Source: Methanococcus vannielii SB (GTDB lineage: Archaea; AGJL01; Methanococci; Methanococcales; Methanococcaceae). From it: a DNA stretch of 64,000 nt. Position numbers and translations under genes: made by a program. This document shows, one piece after another, positions 53,040 to 64,000 of the stretch. Numbering within the stretch: position 1 is the stretch's first letter; each line of letters opens with the position of its first letter. The stretch covers positions 1,596,552-1,660,551 of the forward strand of contig NC_009634.1 in the NCBI RefSeq assembly GCF_000017165.1. The letters are read 5' to 3'. The notes beneath the pieces were generated by a model. It ran no database searches, was not told where the DNA came from, and saw only the letters and a program-made list of their open reading frames with translations.

Positions 53040-53129
53040 ATATTATTAAAAATAATATTGAACCAATTTTATTTATTAAAAAATATAGAAAAGTATATAT
53101 ATAATAATTACCTTTATTATGTTGTTCGT

Positions 53130-53214
53130 GCGGAGATGGCCCAGTCTGGTACGGCGCGGGACTGCTAATCCCGTTACGCTCTGCGTAACCCGAGTTCAAA
53201 TCTCGGTCTCCGCG
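53130..53214 (+). tRNA. tRNA-Ser (anticodon GCT)
   Basis: The acceptor stem GCGGAGA pairs with TCTCCGC. The anticodon stem CGGGA/TCCCG encloses CTGCTAA, giving GCT for AGC/AGU codons. The long variable arm (TTACGC-TCT-GCGTAA) is typical of tRNA-Ser. The T arm is CCGAG/CTCGG with loop TTCAAAT. The discriminator is G at 53214, followed by an oligo-T terminator. The genes that follow are accessory, so this tRNA is a natural candidate attachment site. No second copy of its 3' end was found in the window. Confidence 0.95.
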
Positions 53215-53363
53215 TTTTTTTAACTTTGCGAAATTTTAGTGAAATAAAGCTTTTTTGTGGTTTTTTAAGATAAGTTACATTACAGGATTTAGTCCCGAAC
53301 TGTTATTACGAACTGTTACGGGGCAACTTTCAGGACTTATGAACTTTGCTATCGGGGGTAACT

Positions 53364-54482
53364 ATGGCAGATATAAAAACACATTTGAGGGAACTTAGTG
53401 TTATTGCAGGCATATTGTATACAATATCTGAAAAGAATATTAATGAGCTGTATCAAATGCACCCCAAAGACTTTTTTAAATATTTATCCTCAAAAATTTC
53501 AAATGACATTTCAAATGCATCAAATATTACCTATCTACCAGATTTTAACAATTACAAGTCTATAATGTGTAACGGTATAAATTTGGGGAAAAAAATAGTT
53601 GATTTGGGCATCGTTGATGATTATACTAAGATATATTGGTTGGGATCCGACTCACAAAAAAATGACCCTGTTGACCTTAAAGTTGGAAACACTGGTTTTT
53701 CATTAAAAGAGGAGAGTTATATTCTTGAAAACATGGGGTTATATAAATATTTGAATACGATGACAAATTCCAAGTTTGAGCGAGGTTTACATATTTTTGA
53801 AAATTTTGCAGAAGCAGAATATGCAAAATGGTTTGAATATACGTGGAATAGTATGTTAGGATGGTTAAAAACAAATAACAATATTTGGTCGTTAACAAAG
53901 AATGATAAAACTTCAGAAATTAAAATAGTGAATTCGGAAGTACAATTTATTATCAACGGTACCGTAATTTCAAAGTTACCTAATAGAAATATATCTGTTA
54001 AAGAATATATTGAACACACTGATTCCAAAAGCCGGGAAAAAGTGTTTTCAAAGTGGATTAATTCAAAATTTAAAAAAGACAAAAAATATATTGATTTAAA
54101 GAATATCTGTTCTCAAAAAGCAGGTTCTGAACTTTGCAACTATATATCTCGTAATTATAATCCCGTAGGCCTTGCTAGATTTCTACAAATTTATGAAAAT
54201 GGATATTATTATGCAAAAACTACTGAAAAAGATATTGAAATATATTATGTGCCCAGCATATCGGAATTTGAAAAAGATATTGAAATTGATAAAATAGAAT
54301 ATAGTATTCCTAAATCACAGTTAAATATCATAACAACAGTTAAAAATAAAATTACTGGAAATTCTTTAGAATTTAGAAATGAATGTAGATTTAGCCACGG
54401 TCAATTCAATGGAACACCCGAAGCAAAAATGTATTATGGAAGGAATACGGATTTATCAGATATTTATGAAAAAAAATATTAA
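53364..54482 (+). CDS. Putative type II restriction endonuclease
   Basis: The 372-residue protein is tail to tail with a cytosine methyltransferase (one base between the stop codons), the usual place of a cognate endonuclease. It has a possible PD-(D/E)XK core: DPVDLKVGNTGFSLKEES near residue 99, where Asp and SLK could be catalytic. The rest is mixed alpha/beta without familiar motifs. The ATG at 53364 follows GGGGGTAACT; an in-frame TTG at 53346 is less likely. Target site is unknown. Endonuclease families diverge fast, so lack of a known relative is expected. Confidence 0.65.
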   Translation: MADIKTHLRELSVIAGILYTISEKNINELYQMHPKDFFKYLSSKISNDISNASNITYLPDFNNYKSIMCNGINLGKKIVDLGIVDDYTKIYWLGSDSQKNDPVDLKVGNTGFSLKEESYILENMGLYKYLNTMTNSKFERGLHIFENFAEAEYAKWFEYTWNSMLGWLKTNNNIWSLTKNDKTSEIKIVNSEVQFIINGTVISKLPNRNISVKEYIEHTDSKSREKVFSKWINSKFKKDKKYIDLKNICSQKAGSELCNYISRNYNPVGLARFLQIYENGYYYAKTTEKDIEIYYVPSISEFEKDIEIDKIEYSIPKSQLNIITTVKNKITGNSLEFRNECRFSHGQFNGTPEAKMYYGRNTDLSDIYEKKY

Positions 54483-54483
54483 A

Positions 54484-55590
54484 TTAGCTTTTTTTATTTT
54501 TCGTCAAAGTATGGTACAATGCCCTTGCAATATGCCACCCTAGTATCGGTGGAACAGCATTACCAATTTGTTTATATGCTTCAGATGCAGAAAATGGAAA
54601 ATTAAAATCATCCGGAAACGACTGCAATCTTGCACATTCTCTAACACTTAATCTTCTCCAATACCCCATATCTTCAGGATCTTCATTATTATATGACCTA
54701 TAGTGGGCTTCGATGTTTCCATGATGTTCAGCCCGTATTGTGATTGAGGGGCGATCTGCCAATATTTTATAATTACCTTGCATTTTTTTACCGGGGTAAA
54801 ATTTAGCTTTAGAATAATCTTTTGAAGAATGATTAAATACCTCTTTTGAGTCTATTTTATCCCATAAATCGTCAATGGCTTCTTTTGACGTCATCCATTC
54901 AAAAAGTCCTTCATTACCCCTAACGGGTTTAGGATACATTATGTCCCCAACATAATCATTCCTGATGCCCATTATTATTACCCTTATTCTAGTTTGGGGT
55001 ACTCCATAATCTGCAGTATTAAGTACTTTATAGGCTACTTGGTAGCCCGAGTCCATAAAATCTTTTAGGATAATGTCTAAGGCAGTAGTATCTTTTCCTT
55101 TAGAATTCGTTCTAATTCCGTCTACATTTTCAGCTACAAAAGCAATAGGTTTAATATAATCAATTACTCTTTTCATTTCTAAGTAAAGTCTACCTCTTTC
55201 AGCAGAAAGTCCTTTTCTTTTTCCAGCATGACTAAAATCTTGGCAAGGGAATCCCCCTATTACAATGTCTGCATTAGGGATATCTTCATTTTTTATATCC
55301 TTTATGTCTGCACAAACTGAAGAATGGCAAAAATTACTTTCATAAGTTCTGCATGCTTTATCCGATATATCATTAGAAAATATTATTTCATAGGGGTTAT
55401 GTTCATAATGTTGTTTAAATATTTCAAAACCGCCTTTAAAACCCAAATCCATTCCACCACAACCACTAAATAACGAAATAACTTTAAATTTTTTGGCATA
55501 GTTAATGGGTTTCATAGTGTCAACTAATTTAATATTTTCTGTACTTATTAATTTGCCTTGATTTTTATGTATTTCATGGGATTTTTTCAT
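54484..55590 (-). CDS. DNA (cytosine-5)-methyltransferase
   Basis: This 368-residue C5 methyltransferase protects host DNA. It has motif I VISLFSGCGGMDLGF near residue 39, motif IV GGFPCQDFSHAGKR with the catalytic Cys near residue 108, motif VI FVAENVDGI near 150, motif VIII (QTRIRVIIMG near 195), and motifs IX-X (SVRECARLQSFPDDF, YKQIGNAVPP) at the end. The target recognition domain between VIII and IX is of normal size. The ATG at 55590 follows TGGTGAATAATTTG. It is paired with the convergent gene, a putative endonuclease; the recognition sequence cannot be read from the protein. Confidence 0.95.
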   Translation of the reverse strand: MKKSHEIHKNQGKLISTENIKLVDTMKPINYAKKFKVISLFSGCGGMDLGFKGGFEIFKQHYEHNPYEIIFSNDISDKACRTYESNFCHSSVCADIKDIKNEDIPNADIVIGGFPCQDFSHAGKRKGLSAERGRLYLEMKRVIDYIKPIAFVAENVDGIRTNSKGKDTTALDIILKDFMDSGYQVAYKVLNTADYGVPQTRIRVIIMGIRNDYVGDIMYPKPVRGNEGLFEWMTSKEAIDDLWDKIDSKEVFNHSSKDYSKAKFYPGKKMQGNYKILADRPSITIRAEHHGNIEAHYRSYNNEDPEDMGYWRRLSVRECARLQSFPDDFNFPFSASEAYKQIGNAVPPILGWHIARALYHTLTKNKKS

Positions 55591-55647
55591 CAAATTATTC
55601 ACCAAAAATTATTCTAAATATGCTCATTACTGTATAGTACATTTTAA

Positions 55648-56616
55648 TTATAATATTTTTTGAATATTTTTAATCATTTTTTCCTTTCTTTCCTTTGAAT
55701 GAGAATAGAAAAGAGTTGTATCAAGTGATTTATGACCTAAATATTCTTTTACAATATCTATTGGTTGCCCCTTTTCAAGTAAATCAACAGCTCTGCCGTG
55801 TCTCAATGAATGAACAACGACTTTTTTGTTTGCTGGAATCCTTCCTTCTTTTTTCAATCTATCGACAGCTTTTCTAAAAATTTCCCCAATCCATCCCCTT
55901 CCGATAGGTTCTCCATCAGAATTTTGAAATAGCTTATCTTTAGATCCTTTTTTGACATTGTACTGGACGTAGTAGTTTATTACATCCAATGTATCTCTTG
56001 AACATACAACTGTTCTTTCAGCATTCCCTTTAGTATTTCTTAAAACGAATGTTCCTTCTTCAAGGTCTGAATCCCCGTATGTTAAATTTAGAGCTTCAGA
56101 AATTCTACATCCTGAATCCCAAAGAAATCGGATAATTGTTGCATCCCGGATTTTGGTTCTGCTTTTACTTTCAACAACGATATTTATTATGTCGTTTAAA
56201 AGTTCTGACGAAACCGCATCGTAGTGCTTTATTTCAAAACCTGAGAACCGTTTTCGCTCTTGGCTTTCTTCTTTAAAGTCTTTAAAGTTTTCAAGTCGCA
56301 TGAGCCTGTAAAAGACCTTTAAAAGTTGGTAGTATCTATTTTGGGTATTTCTTGAAAGTTTTCTTTCCCGTTCCAAAAAGTTAAAAAATTTTACAAAGTC
56401 GGCATTTGTAAGTTCGTTAGGGGACTTTTCAAGCCGTTCAAGTACGAAGTTTAAAAATACTTTCAATCGGGTTATATCGTTTCCAATTGTTGATGTTTTA
56501 ATTCCGTCAAATTCTCTTTCTTCTTTAAACTTGTTGAGCCATTTTTTAAGCTCAGGCGGTTCTTTTGAAACTTCTTTTCGAGGTTTTAAGAGCAGTTTAT
56601 TTTTTAGGTCATTCAT
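55648..56616 (-). CDS. Tyrosine integrase of an integrated element
   Basis: The 322-residue protein is a full tyrosine recombinase. Residues 1-120 form the core-binding domain (TRLKVFLNFVLERL, NTQNRYYQLLKVFYR). The catalytic domain shows Arg in WDSGCRISEALNL, Lys in the beta-hairpin VLRNTKGNAER, His-x-x-Arg in VHSLRHGRAV, His in YLGHKSLDTT and Tyr in LFYSHSKER. It overlaps the next gene upstream by eight bases. It most likely inserted the accessory DNA here, perhaps at tRNA-Ser. Its gene set recalls the integrase of archaeal plasmids. Confidence 0.93.
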   Translation of the reverse strand: MNDLKNKLLLKPRKEVSKEPPELKKWLNKFKEEREFDGIKTSTIGNDITRLKVFLNFVLERLEKSPNELTNADFVKFFNFLERERKLSRNTQNRYYQLLKVFYRLMRLENFKDFKEESQERKRFSGFEIKHYDAVSSELLNDIINIVVESKSRTKIRDATIIRFLWDSGCRISEALNLTYGDSDLEEGTFVLRNTKGNAERTVVCSRDTLDVINYYVQYNVKKGSKDKLFQNSDGEPIGRGWIGEIFRKAVDRLKKEGRIPANKKVVVHSLRHGRAVDLLEKGQPIDIVKEYLGHKSLDTTLFYSHSKERKEKMIKNIQKIL

Positions 56617-56854
56617 TCTGCTCAGCCTCGATGATTAAATAATTTACAAGAATGTTTGTTGCTTTTCCGAATTTGTCGGTAATGCCTTGTTCTTGTTTTG
56701 ATAATTTAATTGTTCTTTTGTAGTTCTTTTTTGATTCAACAAGATTTTTTAGTTTTTCAGGATTTACGGATGTTAAACTTTCGAGTTTGTGAAGGTAGTA
56801 CCTTAAAGCTCTTGAATCAACATCCTTTACTAAATAGAATTGTTGTTGTGTCAT
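56609..56854 (-). CDS. Small hypothetical protein coupled to the integrase
   Basis: The 81-residue, helical and basic protein (MTQQQFYLVKDVDSRALRYY, KKNYKRTIKLSKQEQG) ends eight bases inside the integrase start, so both are translated together. GGTGGGATT before its ATG is a good ribosome site. It may be a recombination directionality factor or a small DNA-binding protein. That is a guess from place and size; no motif proves it. Confidence 0.6.
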   Translation of the reverse strand: MTQQQFYLVKDVDSRALRYYLHKLESLTSVNPEKLKNLVESKKNYKRTIKLSKQEQGITDKFGKATNILVNYLIIEAEQNE

Positions 56855-57681: not shown

Positions 57682-58917
57682 TTACTCTTTTTTGGATAAT
57701 TCAGTTCCGCTTAATCTAATTTCACCACATTTTGGACAGGTAATTTCAAAGTTAAGCGAATTTTCTTCCATTAATGTACCGCAAATGCATATTTCGTACT
57801 GTTTGAATGCAAGTCTTAGAAATTCAAGTTTTGAAGTTCTTACATATCCCTTTCCAAGTCTGTCTTTTTCTATAAATCCTTTACTAACTAGTTTTCTTCT
57901 CAAAGAACTGTTATCTCTGTTGAATGTGATATCTAATGATGGAGCAAAGATAAGTGCTTTCATTAGGCTTTCATCAACGTTGTAATCTCTTGCAAATTCG
58001 GAAATCAATTCGTCATTTGAAAGTTTTATCGGCTGAATTCCGTCAAGGCTTAAGCCGTAGTCATTTAAAACAACATCAATAAGCCTTCTAATTTCCCCTT
58101 GGAGATATCCCGGAGTTCCATTTTCATCAAAAGATTTTGCAAATTCTTTATGAAACGTTAGTTCCATTCTGGCAATTCCGGGAGCTTTTTGGTAGAATTT
58201 TAACTGGGATTTATACGACTTTAATTTTTTGTTAATATACGTAGTTCTTGTAAAGTCGTTATATTTTACAATGGTAGTTCCTTTGGCTTTATCCGTTAGA
58301 TATTCGTATTCTGCAATATCCCGGTGTAAAAATTCCACTGGAACTTCAATCGAATCTGCTTTTATCGAGATATCGAACACATTAATATCTTCAGGACACA
58401 ATTCAAGCTTTTTTAGAATATTAATATAAGATTTTTTCAATCCCCAAGTTATTTCGGGATAAAGTATTGAGAAATCTCGAAGGATCTTTTCATTGTCATT
58501 CATGTGAAGTGGGAGAAAGTTCGTATCGAAAAACCCATAGTCCGGTTTTGGAATATTATTTTCCATTCGGTACCATTTTATGAAGTTTACGTATGTTTTT
58601 GCGATGTGGGGTTCCCTTAAAGAAATTTTAATCCATGCAATTTCTTCGCCTTCAAATTTCATCAATGGAAAATGTAGGCCATGGGTAGCCCCCTTGTCAT
58701 CGTACATTTGAACGACATATTTTTTCCATTTTTCAAAGAGTTCCTTTTTAAACTCCCTTTTATTCCCCATAATATTTTTTAATAGAGTTTCACTATGCAG
58801 GGTAAAGGAACAGCGGTCAATACAGATTCTGGGATTTGAACAAATCCCGTATTTTTTTGGGGTTATGTCGAGCCTCCTTTTTTCTCTCGATTTCCAAACT
58901 TTCATGGGTATTGCCAA
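57682..58917 (-). CDS. Candidate replication protein of the element, with C-terminal zinc ribbon
   Basis: The 411-residue protein has a YKSQLKFYQKAPGIARMELT segment near residue 240 that resembles the conserved Lys-Tyr-x-Lys ... Arg-x-Glu part of plasmid and phage replication initiators. The C terminus is a zinc ribbon (CICG ... CPKCG). A wHTH-like stretch precedes it (LRRKLVSKGFIEKDRLGKG). I do not see an HUH motif, so a nicking function is not shown. The TTG at 58917 follows AGGTGGGAAC. It is the longest protein of the integrase-linked gene run; a maintenance role is inferred. A gene 8 bases upstream is co-transcribed. Confidence 0.5.
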   Translation of the reverse strand: MAIPMKVWKSREKRRLDITPKKYGICSNPRICIDRCSFTLHSETLLKNIMGNKREFKKELFEKWKKYVVQMYDDKGATHGLHFPLMKFEGEEIAWIKISLREPHIAKTYVNFIKWYRMENNIPKPDYGFFDTNFLPLHMNDNEKILRDFSILYPEITWGLKKSYINILKKLELCPEDINVFDISIKADSIEVPVEFLHRDIAEYEYLTDKAKGTTIVKYNDFTRTTYINKKLKSYKSQLKFYQKAPGIARMELTFHKEFAKSFDENGTPGYLQGEIRRLIDVVLNDYGLSLDGIQPIKLSNDELISEFARDYNVDESLMKALIFAPSLDITFNRDNSSLRRKLVSKGFIEKDRLGKGYVRTSKLEFLRLAFKQYEICICGTLMEENSLNFEITCPKCGEIRLSGTELSKKE

Positions 58918-59417: not shown

Positions 59418-59812
59418 TTGTTCACCTCAATTATTTTTAATGCAATATGGTTTTAATGTTATACTGCATTACTACATTCATGATTAGTATTCATGCTTTA
59501 AAGTATTTAAAGTTAACTATAAAATCGATGGAAACAACGTAAAAGTAAAAAATATCGATAAAACGAGATTTCTTAAAACAAAGGACGTAAATCAATATTC
59601 TTAATCTAAATCCTATGCGTTGCAAAAAACTGCTCACGAATTTACGATATAAAATGTTGAAAAAACAGTTAAAAATCAGTAAAATTAAAACGAGTAATTC
59701 GGGGTTATTTTGTTAAAAATAAGGCCAGTTACAAAAAATTGTTCACGAAGTTACTGTTACTACTATAAGCACTGCCGTGCAGATTTTGAAAAATATCTTC
59801 GAAAGGTTGTAC

Positions 59813-59836
59813 GCTCGGCAAGAACTGTTGCCGAGC
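59813..59836. repeat. Perfect 9-bp GC-rich inverted repeat
   Basis: GCTCGGCAA (59813-59821) and TTGCCGAGC (59828-59836) are separated by GAACTG. A smaller hairpin GCAC-TGCC-GTGC is at 59769-59780, and its ACTGCC can also pair with GGCAGT at 59867-59872. Confidence 0.75.
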
Positions 59837-59881
59837 TACTGCTTGAAAATAAACATTTGTGCCTAGGGCAGTATGAATTGG

Positions 59882-59913
59882 TTTTGGCAGGTTTACATCC
59901 TAAACCACCAAAA
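59882..59913. repeat. Compound hairpin
   Basis: TTTTGG (59882-59887) pairs with CCAAAA (59908-59913), and nested inside GGTTTA (59890-59895) pairs with TAAACC (59901-59906) around the loop CATCC. The two helices are separated only by CA and A. Confidence 0.7.
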
Positions 59914-59919
59914 GGAGTC

Positions 59920-59991
59920 GAATTTCATTGCATATGGAGTTTTCGCCCTTTCGGGGCGCTTCGCTCGAAAACATCCTAAGCAATGAAATTC
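59920..59991. repeat. 72-base near-continuous hairpin with 12-bp outer stem
   Basis: GAATTTCATTGC (59920-59931) is the exact reverse complement of GCAATGAAATTC (59980-59991). Inside, GGA-GTTTTCG (59936-59945) pairs with CGAAAAC-A-TCC (59966-59976), and at the tip CGCCC-TTTCG-GGGCG forms a tight GC-rich hairpin. It could be a cruciform, an origin element, or the core of an RNA. Confidence 0.8.
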
Positions 59992-60056
59992 ATAGGTTTT
60001 CGTGTGGTCGTTGGTCGGATAGGATATAAATTAGGGTTTGGCGTTAGTGCCGGTGC

Positions 60057-62645
60057 TCACTTTAAAGCGGGATTTTTATAATAATATGTATTTTCAATAA
60101 ATAGATTAATTTTTTCAATAGAAATCTCGTCAAGTTGAGTAAATGCTCTTAGTTTCGGGATTCTAGTTATTTTTTCATATAGTTTCGGGCCTTCTCCAGA
60201 CGGCAGGTGTGAAGCTATTTCTTTTATTAGTAATTCACTGAGTCCACTAATTAAAAATCCACATTCGGGCTCATTTAACTCAGATATTATTTTTGAAATT
60301 TGGAGGAAATTACCGTGATGTATATTTAATATTTCATGTTTGATATTGTCATACTTGATTTCTTTGAATTTTTGATATGTATTAAATGGGGCAATGGACG
60401 CTAGATACTGTTCAACAAGTAAACTATATTTTTCAAGTATGTTTTTGTTAATATCATGCAAATATTTTGCATTTTGATTAATATATGGGTCAGATTTATC
60501 ATCTATGCCTGTTAATATCGTTAAATGTTCTGGAGGAGTAATTTCACGAAGGTTGAGTTCAGCATATACATTTTTCATGTCTTTTTTTAACAATGTTAAC
60601 GTTGCACCAATATTGACTCCCGAAAGATCCTTTACATTTTTCATACAGTCCAAAATGAGGTCATGGTCAATATTTTCCAATATAAAAAGCATCTGTTCTT
60701 TGTTAATTCCCGAAAGAATGGCTTCAATCGTCTCAAAATGTTTAACCTCATCAAAAGTATAGAGTTCATTGATAATTTCTACCAATTTGTTATTTTCAAG
60801 ATATTCAAAATCTAAATTTATTAATTCGTCAGGGGAATAAACATCAGTTAACCGATCATTTTTATTTTTAGATCTTCTAATTATTTCGTCAATAACCAGA
60901 TATGAATCATTACTTTTTTTCAAAGAATTTATTAAAATATGAGTATTCATTATGAGGTCATCGCTAGTTGGTGAAAATAAGTCATGTAATCCCCTAACGA
61001 TTTGTCCTGAAATATACTTTTTTGAATAGTGTTTTACATGTTCTAATGAATAAATAAGCCCATTTGCAATTATTGTTCTATTTTTCGGAGGTACTCGATA
61101 TAGTGAGTTGCCGTTATTTTGTAATTTTAGGATATACCGTTCTAGACGATCACTTTTTGATAATTTGTGCAAAAAACCTTCAAAATCTTTTTCAGTGAGT
61201 CCTTGTTTTTTATATAATTCTAATTCATACGTCTGAAATTCATGTTCTGATTTACAATACATAAAATAATTGTTGAATGAGTTTTCCCCGTAAATCCTGT
61301 TTTCAGGGTTTCCGTCACGTGTATCAAGTATTGCAAATTCTTTAATTGCAGAATTAGGAAATAAAACGGTTAATAATTGATAAACATCATCTGCATCGAT
61401 CGAACGGTAATTTTTCAAGTATTCGTTGATTTTATTTTTGTAATATTTATGATCGTATCCCGAACCACCTAATACGCACGTTCCATCAAATACAGAATAA
61501 CCTACAAAAAGTTCTTTATTATGTTTTACCCAATCGTAAATTTCGGGCGTAAAAACTTGCAAAGCAGTTAAAACAATTAAATCTATTTTATTAACTTGAT
61601 TTTTTAGAAGATTCCAATTAAAATTAAAAATAGAGATATATCTATTCACATCTCGAATATTTTTGATCATGTTGCTAAAGCACAAGGGATAAAATTCAAA
61701 GTATTGGGGTATATCTCGAGGATTTTCTCCAATTATATTTTTTATTTCTTCTTCCAAAATGTTTTCTAAATCTAATGTATGGGGTTCAGGCATTTTTATT
61801 GGAAATTGTATAATTTTTTCAAGATAGTGCATCCCATATCCATTTTGATGATTTTCTAAAGCATTAGATACAATTTTTTCATCAAATGATAGGACGTAAG
61901 TTATATTTTTAAAATCAGCAAGGCATTTTACAAGATGGAGTATTTGACCGATTTCTCTGTCATTCAGTCTATCCATGTCATCCATAATAACCAAGATTCT
62001 GAATGGCAAGTTTTCGAATTTTTTGTCTAATTTCTTTTTTACGGTTACGATGTCGGTAGGTTGTCTGTATCCCTTCAATATTACGGATAAACATTTAGTG
62101 ATTATTTTTCCAATTGTGACCGTAATTGTAAGGATTGGATTCAGTGTAATGAATTCAGGACTCATTTTTTCTAAATATTTATCAATACTAGATACCAATC
62201 CCCACATAACCCCAAAAATTTTTCCAATCCAATCTTTTATATTTTCTAATATGGATTGACGTGTTTTCAATGATTCCGAAAGACATTTAAAGAAATTTAA
62301 TATTAAATCATCAGTTTCCGTAAAATACCACGGATTAAATTTTATAGTAAGCATATTACATTTTTCAATTCTTTTGAGTTTTATAAATCTTTTAATTCGG
62401 TTTTGTTTAGAATTTTTGCATTCATTAATTTTTTCTTTAAAATCATTTTCTAGAATTTCCAAAGATTTATCAATCGAAAAGGATTTCCCTGAACCCCATG
62501 ATCCATAAAGTCCAACAACAAATCCATTTTTTTCATTATCTTGCCAGTTCATTATTTCTGCAAGACTTTTATGAAATCCTTCTCTTTCAAGAAGGTCTTT
62601 TTTTTCAGGATTGTTTATCTCCATTAAAATATTGTTATTTCCCAA
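60057..62645 (-). CDS. KAP-family P-loop NTPase
   Basis: The 862-residue protein is a KAP NTPase. Walker A is GSWGSGKS at residues 48-55, the family FNPW motif is at 103-106, and Walker B ILVIMDDMDRL is at 217-227, followed by YVLSFDEKIV. Between them lies a hydrophobic insert (about 140-190), as in KAP proteins with membrane segments. The C-terminal 500 residues are helical and unlike anything I recognise. The TTG at 62645 follows a G8 ribosome site (AGAGGGGGGGG). It begins 27 bases after the MCM-N gene and is surely co-transcribed. KAP proteins occur in phage-defence and membrane-linked signalling loci; the role here is unknown. Confidence 0.88.
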   Translation of the reverse strand: MGNNNILMEINNPEKKDLLEREGFHKSLAEIMNWQDNEKNGFVVGLYGSWGSGKSFSIDKSLEILENDFKEKINECKNSKQNRIKRFIKLKRIEKCNMLTIKFNPWYFTETDDLILNFFKCLSESLKTRQSILENIKDWIGKIFGVMWGLVSSIDKYLEKMSPEFITLNPILTITVTIGKIITKCLSVILKGYRQPTDIVTVKKKLDKKFENLPFRILVIMDDMDRLNDREIGQILHLVKCLADFKNITYVLSFDEKIVSNALENHQNGYGMHYLEKIIQFPIKMPEPHTLDLENILEEEIKNIIGENPRDIPQYFEFYPLCFSNMIKNIRDVNRYISIFNFNWNLLKNQVNKIDLIVLTALQVFTPEIYDWVKHNKELFVGYSVFDGTCVLGGSGYDHKYYKNKINEYLKNYRSIDADDVYQLLTVLFPNSAIKEFAILDTRDGNPENRIYGENSFNNYFMYCKSEHEFQTYELELYKKQGLTEKDFEGFLHKLSKSDRLERYILKLQNNGNSLYRVPPKNRTIIANGLIYSLEHVKHYSKKYISGQIVRGLHDLFSPTSDDLIMNTHILINSLKKSNDSYLVIDEIIRRSKNKNDRLTDVYSPDELINLDFEYLENNKLVEIINELYTFDEVKHFETIEAILSGINKEQMLFILENIDHDLILDCMKNVKDLSGVNIGATLTLLKKDMKNVYAELNLREITPPEHLTILTGIDDKSDPYINQNAKYLHDINKNILEKYSLLVEQYLASIAPFNTYQKFKEIKYDNIKHEILNIHHGNFLQISKIISELNEPECGFLISGLSELLIKEIASHLPSGEGPKLYEKITRIPKLRAFTQLDEISIEKINLFIENTYYYKNPALK

Positions 62646-62672
62646 AATTCCCCCCCCTCTTTATGTAAGTCT

Positions 62673-63413
62673 TTATTTTTCATCTTCAATTTTTTCTGCA
62701 TATATTCCTTTGATTATGATATCAAATACGCCAGTTTTTTTATTCGGTCTTAAATACGGGATCCCAATGATTCGGAAAATTCCGTTATATATCCCAGGTG
62801 AATTTTTTAATATTATTTCTTGTTCTATATTCGAAGTACTTTTTGATAAAAACTCTTTATTAATTGATATTAAGGTTAATTCTTGAAAATCTTCGTATTT
62901 AGATTCACTCTGCATAAGAAACATTTTTTGACTACATTTTGGACAAGTTCTTTCCAAACTGGTTTCAAAAGGATTTTCAATTTTAAATATGGCCGAGTTT
63001 CCACAAGTTGTACATGTCAATGCTAAATTTGTAATTCCAGAAACAATTTTCTTTGTACTTTTAATTTTTCCGTCAATTTCAATTAATTTTCCAACATGGC
63101 AGGTATTAATTTCGTGAATCTCTATTTTGGATAGTAATTCTTTAGGAATATTTTTTATACTGGCCGTTATATTTATTCTTTCACAGTTATAGTCCCAAAA
63201 TGCTTCATTGTAACATTTTTCAAGTAGGCAAATCCCTTCATCAGGGTAATTTATAATATATTCTAAAATGGCATTACCTAACGGAGATTTATGGAATAAA
63301 TCGTTTAAATCCATAGTAACTATGTTTTTTTCTTTTGTTAAGTTTTCAAAATGAAATTCTTTTAAATAACTGATAATTTCCGGTTCAAAATTTAAAGTTT
63401 GACTATTCCGCAC
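62673..63413 (-). CDS. Stand-alone MCM N-terminal domain protein (no AAA+ helicase)
   Basis: The 246 residues match the N-terminal domain of archaeal MCM from end to end. Domain A is helical (residues 10-85). Residues 100-128 (INTCHVGKLIEIDGKIKS) open the OB fold. A zinc ribbon follows with Cys134, Cys137, Cys157 and Cys160. The typical SKYEDFQELTLI (171-182) closes it, and GIFRIIGIPYL and FDIIIKGIYAE end the OB strands. There is no Walker motif and no helicase remnant downstream; the next gene is the KAP NTPase. The GTG at 63413 follows TGGTGAGAAT. A TATA-like TTAATATATAAAT on the minus strand near 63455 is its likely promoter. Confidence 0.85.
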   Translation of the reverse strand: MRNSQTLNFEPEIISYLKEFHFENLTKEKNIVTMDLNDLFHKSPLGNAILEYIINYPDEGICLLEKCYNEAFWDYNCERINITASIKNIPKELLSKIEIHEINTCHVGKLIEIDGKIKSTKKIVSGITNLALTCTTCGNSAIFKIENPFETSLERTCPKCSQKMFLMQSESKYEDFQELTLISINKEFLSKSTSNIEQEIILKNSPGIYNGIFRIIGIPYLRPNKKTGVFDIIIKGIYAEKIEDEK

Positions 63414-63542: not shown

Positions 63543-64000
63543 TTAATCAATATATCCCAACGCTACAAGATTTAATAATAAATTTTCAACTTCTTCTCCA
63601 CTATTTAATTGGATAAACGTATATTGGTAATATGGATAAGGTTCCGAGTTTGGGTACAATTCCCTACAAAATTCAATTCCTGATGGCATTTTTATATTGT
63701 ATTTTTTAATATCTTCATGACTGTATAATATATCTATAAATTCATTAATTCGAATACTTTCTTCCTTATAAATTGCGGTTTTTAAAACCCATTTTCCAGC
63801 ACTATCCTTAAAATATATCTTTTTCAGCTTTAGTGCCTCTATCATCCATTTTAATCGATTATCTTTAATAAATTTTAAATAATTTTTGTATTTGGTCTGA
63901 TCCGGTTTTTTCGGCATTTTTTCTATTTTTGAGTCGATTATATCTTTTAATTTTTCAAAATATTTGTTTTCTAAATTTTTAAATTCCTCACGGTACGAAA
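63543..64000 (-). CDS. Partial gene of unknown function, 5' end beyond the window
   Basis: The frame is open from the right window edge (64000) to the stop at 63543, at least 152 codons. An internal ATG at 63917 has no ribosome site, and the codons to its right read as a charged helix (EEFKNLENKYFEKLKDIIDS), so the gene very probably starts outside the window. The visible part is helical at first, then mixed, with the tail SEPYPYYQYTFIQLNSGEEV. No motif is recognised. It is on the same strand as the MCM-N/KAP pair, 129 bases before it, and may be part of the same locus. Confidence 0.65.
   Translation of the reverse strand, partial: SYREEFKNLENKYFEKLKDIIDSKIEKMPKKPDQTKYKNYLKFIKDNRLKWMIEALKLKKIYFKDSAGKWVLKTAIYKEESIRINEFIDILYSHEDIKKYNIKMPSGIEFCRELYPNSEPYPYYQYTFIQLNSGEEVENLLLNLVALGYID

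Follow-up and report, generated by a model that had tools for sequence, protein, structure and literature searches.

A motor-less MCM N-terminal domain protein and a PifA-like KAP NTPase look like neighboring cargo of a tRNA-Ser element in Methanococcus vannielii

We analyzed a 64-kb window from the complete genome of the Methanococcales member Methanococcus vannielii SB (1,720,048 bp), in which a stand-alone MCM N-terminal domain protein (from here on MCM-N) is encoded next to a KAP P-loop NTPase (from here on KAP). We find that MCM-N has probably been maintained as an MCM subunit without a motor, rather than being a fresh truncation, and, because the pair was not found anywhere else in our searches, that MCM-N and KAP look like neighboring cargo, not a new two-part machine. 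As listed in Table 1, the coordinates, strands, and lengths of the two genes were all as originally predicted, as was the 27-bp gap that separates MCM-N from the downstream KAP on the same strand. The two genes lie in a common reading frame, but two intervening TAA codons rule out a read-through fusion. A TATA-like sequence, AATATATAAA, and a GGTGA Shine-Dalgarno-like site preceding the GTG start of MCM-N, both read by eye, make up a putative promoter of the pair, and the 27-bp spacing together with the TATA-like box upstream of MCM-N suggests that both genes are probably carried on one transcript. The eight-G run in the spacer stands out against the 30% GC genome, and changes in its length before the KAP start could tune KAP translation.

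Table 1. Features of the integrated element, with positions on the scale of the window
Feature	Position	Strand	Description
attL	53162..53218	(+)	57-bp repeat, 3' part of tRNA-Ser (tRNA 53129-53215)
Type II restriction endonuclease-like protein	53346..54482	(+)	378 aa; PADLOC REase_II E=1.4e-71; element cargo
C5-cytosine DNA methyltransferase	54484..55605	(-)	373 aa; Pfam DNA_methylase E=3e-78; element cargo
Tyrosine integrase of the element	55648..56616	(-)	322 aa; Pfam Phage_integrase E=8e-31
DUF2540 protein	56609..56854	(-)	overlaps start of integrase
411-aa protein	57682..58917	(-)	two proviruses also bearing KAP cargo have a related gene (28%)
KAP P-loop NTPase, PifA-like	60057..62645	(-)	862 aa; TTG start
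G8 run	62650..62657	(-)	within 27-bp spacer, just 5' of KAP TTG start
MCM-N, stand-alone MCM N-terminal domain (A + Zn ribbon + OB)	62673..63413	(-)	246 aa; GTG start; no AAA+
TATA-like AATATATAAA	63451..63460	(-)	upstream of MCM-N; read by eye
327-aa orphan protein, C-terminal part in window	63543..64000	(-)	gene extends to 64526; upstream of MCM-N, same strand
SIR2-like protein	65322-66608		PADLOC Aga_SIR2 E 2.5e-11
Overlapping DUF4258/DUF2283 pair	67069-67365 and 66675-67151		L005 15621-15917 and 15227-15703; weak Pfam matches
attR	67665..67721		second copy of the 57-bp repeat; past window end

MCM-N matches Pfam MCM_OB over residues 99-181 (E=4.6e-12), and an AlphaFold2 model built with ten related sequences (pLDDT 83.3) comprises helical domain A, a Cys4 ribbon (C134, C137, C157, and C160), and an OB fold. 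The best Foldseek matches of this model were the PfMCM N-domain (4pof, E 1.2e-16) and the MtMCM N-domain (1ltl). The motor of the MCM replicative helicase, with its Walker A/B, sensor, and arginine-finger elements, is absent from MCM-N, and a hidden AAA+ remnant nearby was rejected, as none was found in the ORFs of 30 aa or more across 53-72 kb. On these grounds, the prediction of a complete MCM N-terminal domain without an AAA+ helicase is borne out.

MCM-N is closest, at 33-36% identity, to N-domains from full-length MCMs of Methanococcales, and no N-only MCM was found in 35 other genomes of this phylum. We compared MCM-N with 52 aligned rows of full-length MCMs, a few of them identical, giving 53 rows. 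Loop residues 182-203 are the most conserved part of the N-domain of full-length MCMs (mean pairwise BLOSUM 3.48); the mean BLOSUM score of MCM-N to the family is -0.79 in this loop versus 1.48 elsewhere, which is extreme among the 53 rows, and the latter value is that of a normal divergent family member. Among columns conserved at 80% or more, MCM-N keeps 0/9 in residues 182-203 versus 23/31 elsewhere (Fisher p=9e-5, with alignment columns treated as independent). The position equivalent to MtMCM Q181 is Q in 52/52 full-length MCMs and I in MCM-N; this glutamine belongs to the allosteric communication loop, contacts the AAA+ motor, and has been described as fully conserved (PMC4619765). The alignment thus indicates that MCM-N has lost the allosteric communication loop that couples to the motor.

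Basic residues were also lost in MCM-N, compared with the family, at positions 124, 128, 129, 180, 212, and 221, several of which correspond to ssDNA-contact sites; at the MSSB positions, the equivalents of PfMCM R186 and K129 are T180 and V124, respectively, and the PfMCM R124 site is non-basic in most Methanococcales MCMs too. The proposal that MCM-N acts as a DNA clamp is doubtful because of these losses, although the basic β-turn residues R222, K225, and K226 remain. MCM-N further retains the four zinc cysteines and Y173, which aligns with PfMCM F179, a residue needed for hexamers (PMC4627082).

MCM-N was probably maintained in motor-less form for a while: had the cut been recent, the loop should still be intact, and had the gene been dead, the zinc and OB columns should have eroded, but in MCM-N the loop is degenerate and these columns are kept. 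The most likely ancestor of MCM-N is a Methanococcales MCM whose AAA+ motor was lost, though not recently. The alternative against which the original prediction had set itself, that a full MCM at this site was recently truncated at its 3' end, is disfavored, as we found no relative with a full MCM here, the best identity is 36%, and the loop has already diverged.

The accessory-island setting holds: MCM-N and KAP lie in a 14.6-kb integrated mobile element with defense-type genes, including restriction-modification genes, and an integrase. Its exact ends are 57-bp direct repeats of a tRNA-Ser gene, so that an integrase, direct repeats, and one repeat copy within the tRNA gene, as in tRNA-integrated mobile elements, are all present. 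The integrase is 60-67% identical to sister-element integrases, and the DUF2540-integrase order recurs in element L138, there adjoining a full-length MCM. Three further genes, including the 411-aa gene and a 163-aa gene, lie between DUF2540 and KAP; the 411-aa gene is a possible replication gene. The ∼640 bp between the 163-aa gene and KAP (59418-60056) hold no convincing gene and have no match in Rfam; an inverted-repeat-rich sequence, TTTTCGCCCTTTCGGGGCGCTTCGCTCGAAAA, near 59940-59972 makes this stretch a possible element origin or terminator. The 327-aa orphan has no convincing family in Pfam, PHROGs, PADLOC, or NCBIfam and no strong relative in 394 archaeal genomes. The DUF4258/DUF2283 pair, which adjoins the right attachment repeat, resembles a toxin-antitoxin module, and the next element holds a DUF2283-like gene related to that of this pair. 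Directly past the right repeat, another integrase, sharing 65% identity with the first, and an AAA-type replication protein (68614-71790 on the window scale) mark a tandem integration in tRNA-Ser. No third copy of the repeat was found. Several other genomes of the genus contain the same tRNA end at least twice.

Elements of the pT26-2 family are known to integrate into tRNA-Ser, and many of them use an MCM for replication; MCM is a common replication gene among Methanococcales elements in tRNA-Ser (PMC6972569). The full-length MCMs borne by such elements (pT26-2 family and others; PMC6972569) share with MCM-N the host order, the tRNA-Ser site, a related integrase, and MCM ancestry, but they are replication helicases that retain both the AAA+ motor and the communication loop, whereas MCM-N has neither. 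Two explanations of MCM-N start from this setting. First, MCM-N could be a relic, in which the former full MCM replication gene of the element lost its motor by deletion and the remaining ORF is decaying. The full MCM adjoining DUF2540 and the integrase in L138, the frequent replacement of mobile-element MCMs (PMC6972569), and the long branch of MCM-N (2.38, for a single sequence) are consistent with this, but the cut falls at the domain boundary, the ORF, start site, and four zinc cysteines are intact, and divergence is concentrated in the motor-facing loop instead of being even. Further, the place of the L138 MCM is held by other genes in this element, and MCM-N sits elsewhere; we therefore consider a relic unlikely. 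Second, MCM-N could serve replication or copy control by binding the element origin or by bringing the host MCM there, as would suit an element group in which MCM is the typical replication gene and an element in which no other recognizable helicase was found. We regard this as improbable, because MCM-N lies among cargo genes (KAP, SIR2-like, and toxin-antitoxin-like), away from the integrase, the provirus-conserved 411-aa gene is the better replication candidate, and sister elements are without MCM-N.

N-only MCMs are not themselves new: four haloarchaeal MCM proteins of 312-315 aa with the N-terminal domain only were published in 2014 (PMC3972481). By searching plasmids with an archaeal MCM N-domain, we found an N-only MCM of 244-248 aa in seven Halorussus species (plasmids L141, L143, L144, L145, L147, L148, and L149). 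The neighborhood of these genes is conserved, with a PadR-type regulator downstream and, in most, an FAD/Fe-S protein (oxidase) upstream. With dN/dS of 0.16-0.39 over all pairs, the Halorussus genes evolve under purifying selection, and N-only MCMs can thus be functional genes. Like MCM-N, the haloarchaeal proteins (those of PMC3972481 and of Halorussus) have domain A, the zinc ribbon, and OB and no AAA+; the Halorussus proteins keep the cysteines, and their motor-facing communication loop is lost or shortened, independently of the loss in MCM-N. The haloarchaeal proteins have a separate origin, whereas the nearest relatives of MCM-N are full-length Methanococcales MCMs, and the Halorussus genes also differ from MCM-N in lying on large plasmids beside the PadR regulator, with no element borders seen and no KAP at any of the seven loci. 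N-only MCMs thus arose more than once, with at least one family under purifying selection, and MCM-N is an independent, element-borne case of a kind known before. As far as we checked, it appears to be new that N-only MCMs have the lost communication loop as a signature in common.

Other candidate N-only MCMs from the archaeal genomes searched were rejected: in G021 and G133, the MCM is split or frameshifted and the following ORF encodes the motor, the matches in G065, G165, G169, and G078 sit at contig edges, and Halosegnis L142 is a split full MCM. The G133 MCM (L164:3040-5066) is divided into two neighboring ORFs near Walker A, and the division may reflect a natural split, an intein-related event, or an error in sequencing. 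A different arrangement was seen on the Haloglomus halophilum plasmid NZ_CP101168 (L146:5920-7413), where a 497-aa fusion joins an MCM N-domain to an HsdR_N/PD-(D/E)XK-like nuclease domain; a large protein that combines helicase-type AAA and PDDEXK_1 domains is encoded ∼0.9 kb downstream. This fusion is possibly a defense-type use of the MCM N-domain, and it has no KAP neighbor.

KAP is a genuine P-loop NTPase, as predicted, matching Pfam KAP_NTPase (E=8e-40) and bearing Walker A (GSWGSGKS, residues 48-55) and Walker B (ILVIMDDMDR, residues 217-226). It shares this core, and its occurrence as a single gene on a mobile element, with PifA and other KAP NTPases (Pfam PF07693; PADLOC PifA). The PADLOC PifA match (E=5e-52) covers residues 90-427 only, so similarity to PifA does not run the full length, and the C-terminal halves of the two proteins are unrelated. 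The membrane tie suggested for KAP finds no support here, as its most hydrophobic 19-mer (residues 171-189) has a Kyte-Doolittle score of only 1.77. The structure model of KAP is of low confidence (pLDDT 54), and Foldseek matches of its ATPase core to RADAR RdrA (E 6e-6) and Orc1/Cdc6 (E 2e-4) have a TM of about 0.27; because the model is too poor, the predicted core is assigned only to a broad AAA+ group with RdrA and Orc1/Cdc6 and to nothing finer. The likeness to RADAR is confined to this core, and there is no RdrB partner here. The reading that we prefer for KAP is that of a putative anti-virus or exclusion gene that needs no partner.

KAP genes were found in 21/394 archaeal genomes. The nearest relative of the KAP studied here, from another species of the genus, is 49% identical over the full length and is flanked by unrelated genes, with neither MCM-N nor the 327-aa gene adjoining. 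We screened the surroundings of ∼30 other KAP loci (about 18 in archaeal genomes, 2 in proviruses, 2 on haloarchaeal plasmids, and 9 on viral contigs) with an MCM profile and found no MCM gene within about 6-8 kb on each side where the contig allowed, a few loci being cut by contig ends. Scanning viral contigs directly with only the MCM-N and KAP sequences gave no match, and a profile scan gave one element with a full-length MCM. In two proviruses of the genus (L055:7592-10606 and L056:8464-10767), distant and differing KAPs occupy the same place in reverse orientation among otherwise homologous, virion-type genes, as if this site were a slot that takes up exclusion genes as cargo.

The original prediction had proposed that MCM-N and KAP may form a system, which a recurring KAP partner of MCM-N-only genes would support; in such a system, MCM-N would sense DNA or the replisome and KAP would be the ATPase effector. 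The 27-bp spacing, the shared strand, and the putative single upstream promoter would suit such a system, as would the PifA-like KAP core and the resemblance of its low-confidence model to RdrA and Orc1/Cdc6, a natural MCM loader class; Cdc6-type proteins load MCM. However, the closest KAP relative has no MCM-N or 327-aa neighbor, the other checked KAP loci are without MCM, the seven Halorussus loci are without KAP, and the lost basic DNA-contact positions speak against a clamp. No second pairing was seen in anything searched, adjacency inside a cargo block is weak evidence of joint function, and we give the two-part system little credence. We consider very unlikely a variant directed against other elements, in which motor-less MCM units insert into or sense the MCM rings of an invader and this contact triggers the adjacent KAP; if it were true, the competitor's MCM-dependent replication would itself be the signal.

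The explanation that we tentatively favor, while rating it somewhat below an even chance, is that MCM-N works as an MCM partner or decoy without catalytic activity and is cargo alongside a PifA-like KAP that functions independently. It builds on the observed anatomy, fold, borders, loss of loop and motor, and lack of co-occurrence. The tRNA-Ser element would carry an accessory block in which KAP acts alone as an anti-virus or exclusion gene. MCM-N would retain the building features of the N-tier (helical domain A, the Cys4 zinc ribbon, the OB core, the interface aromatic, and the basic β-turn) and, without the motor-coupling loop, would dock onto or mix into MCM rings and alter them, whether the rings belong to the host or to competing elements that rely on an MCM of their own for replication. 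Its biological role would then be to favor its own element or hinder rivals, or to serve its own element's replication. The complete fold, the loop loss, Y173, selection in Halorussus, the existence of MCM-replicating Methanococcales elements, and the occurrence of KAP on its own elsewhere count for this reading. Against it count the identity to host MCMs, which at only 33-36% may be too low for mixed rings, and the report that an N-domain mutant defective in hexamer formation had no visible poisoning effect on the wild type (PMC4627082).

Overall, the front half of MCM has been kept without the motor more than once, at the origin of MCM-N and in Halorussus, with the motor-coupling loop lost alongside, and loop loss may serve as a sequence signature for finding motor-less MCM proteins. 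N-only MCMs have so far been noted in passing; the present case raises the idea that motor-less MCM subunits may act as regulators or poisons of MCM rings where elements replicate with their own MCM.
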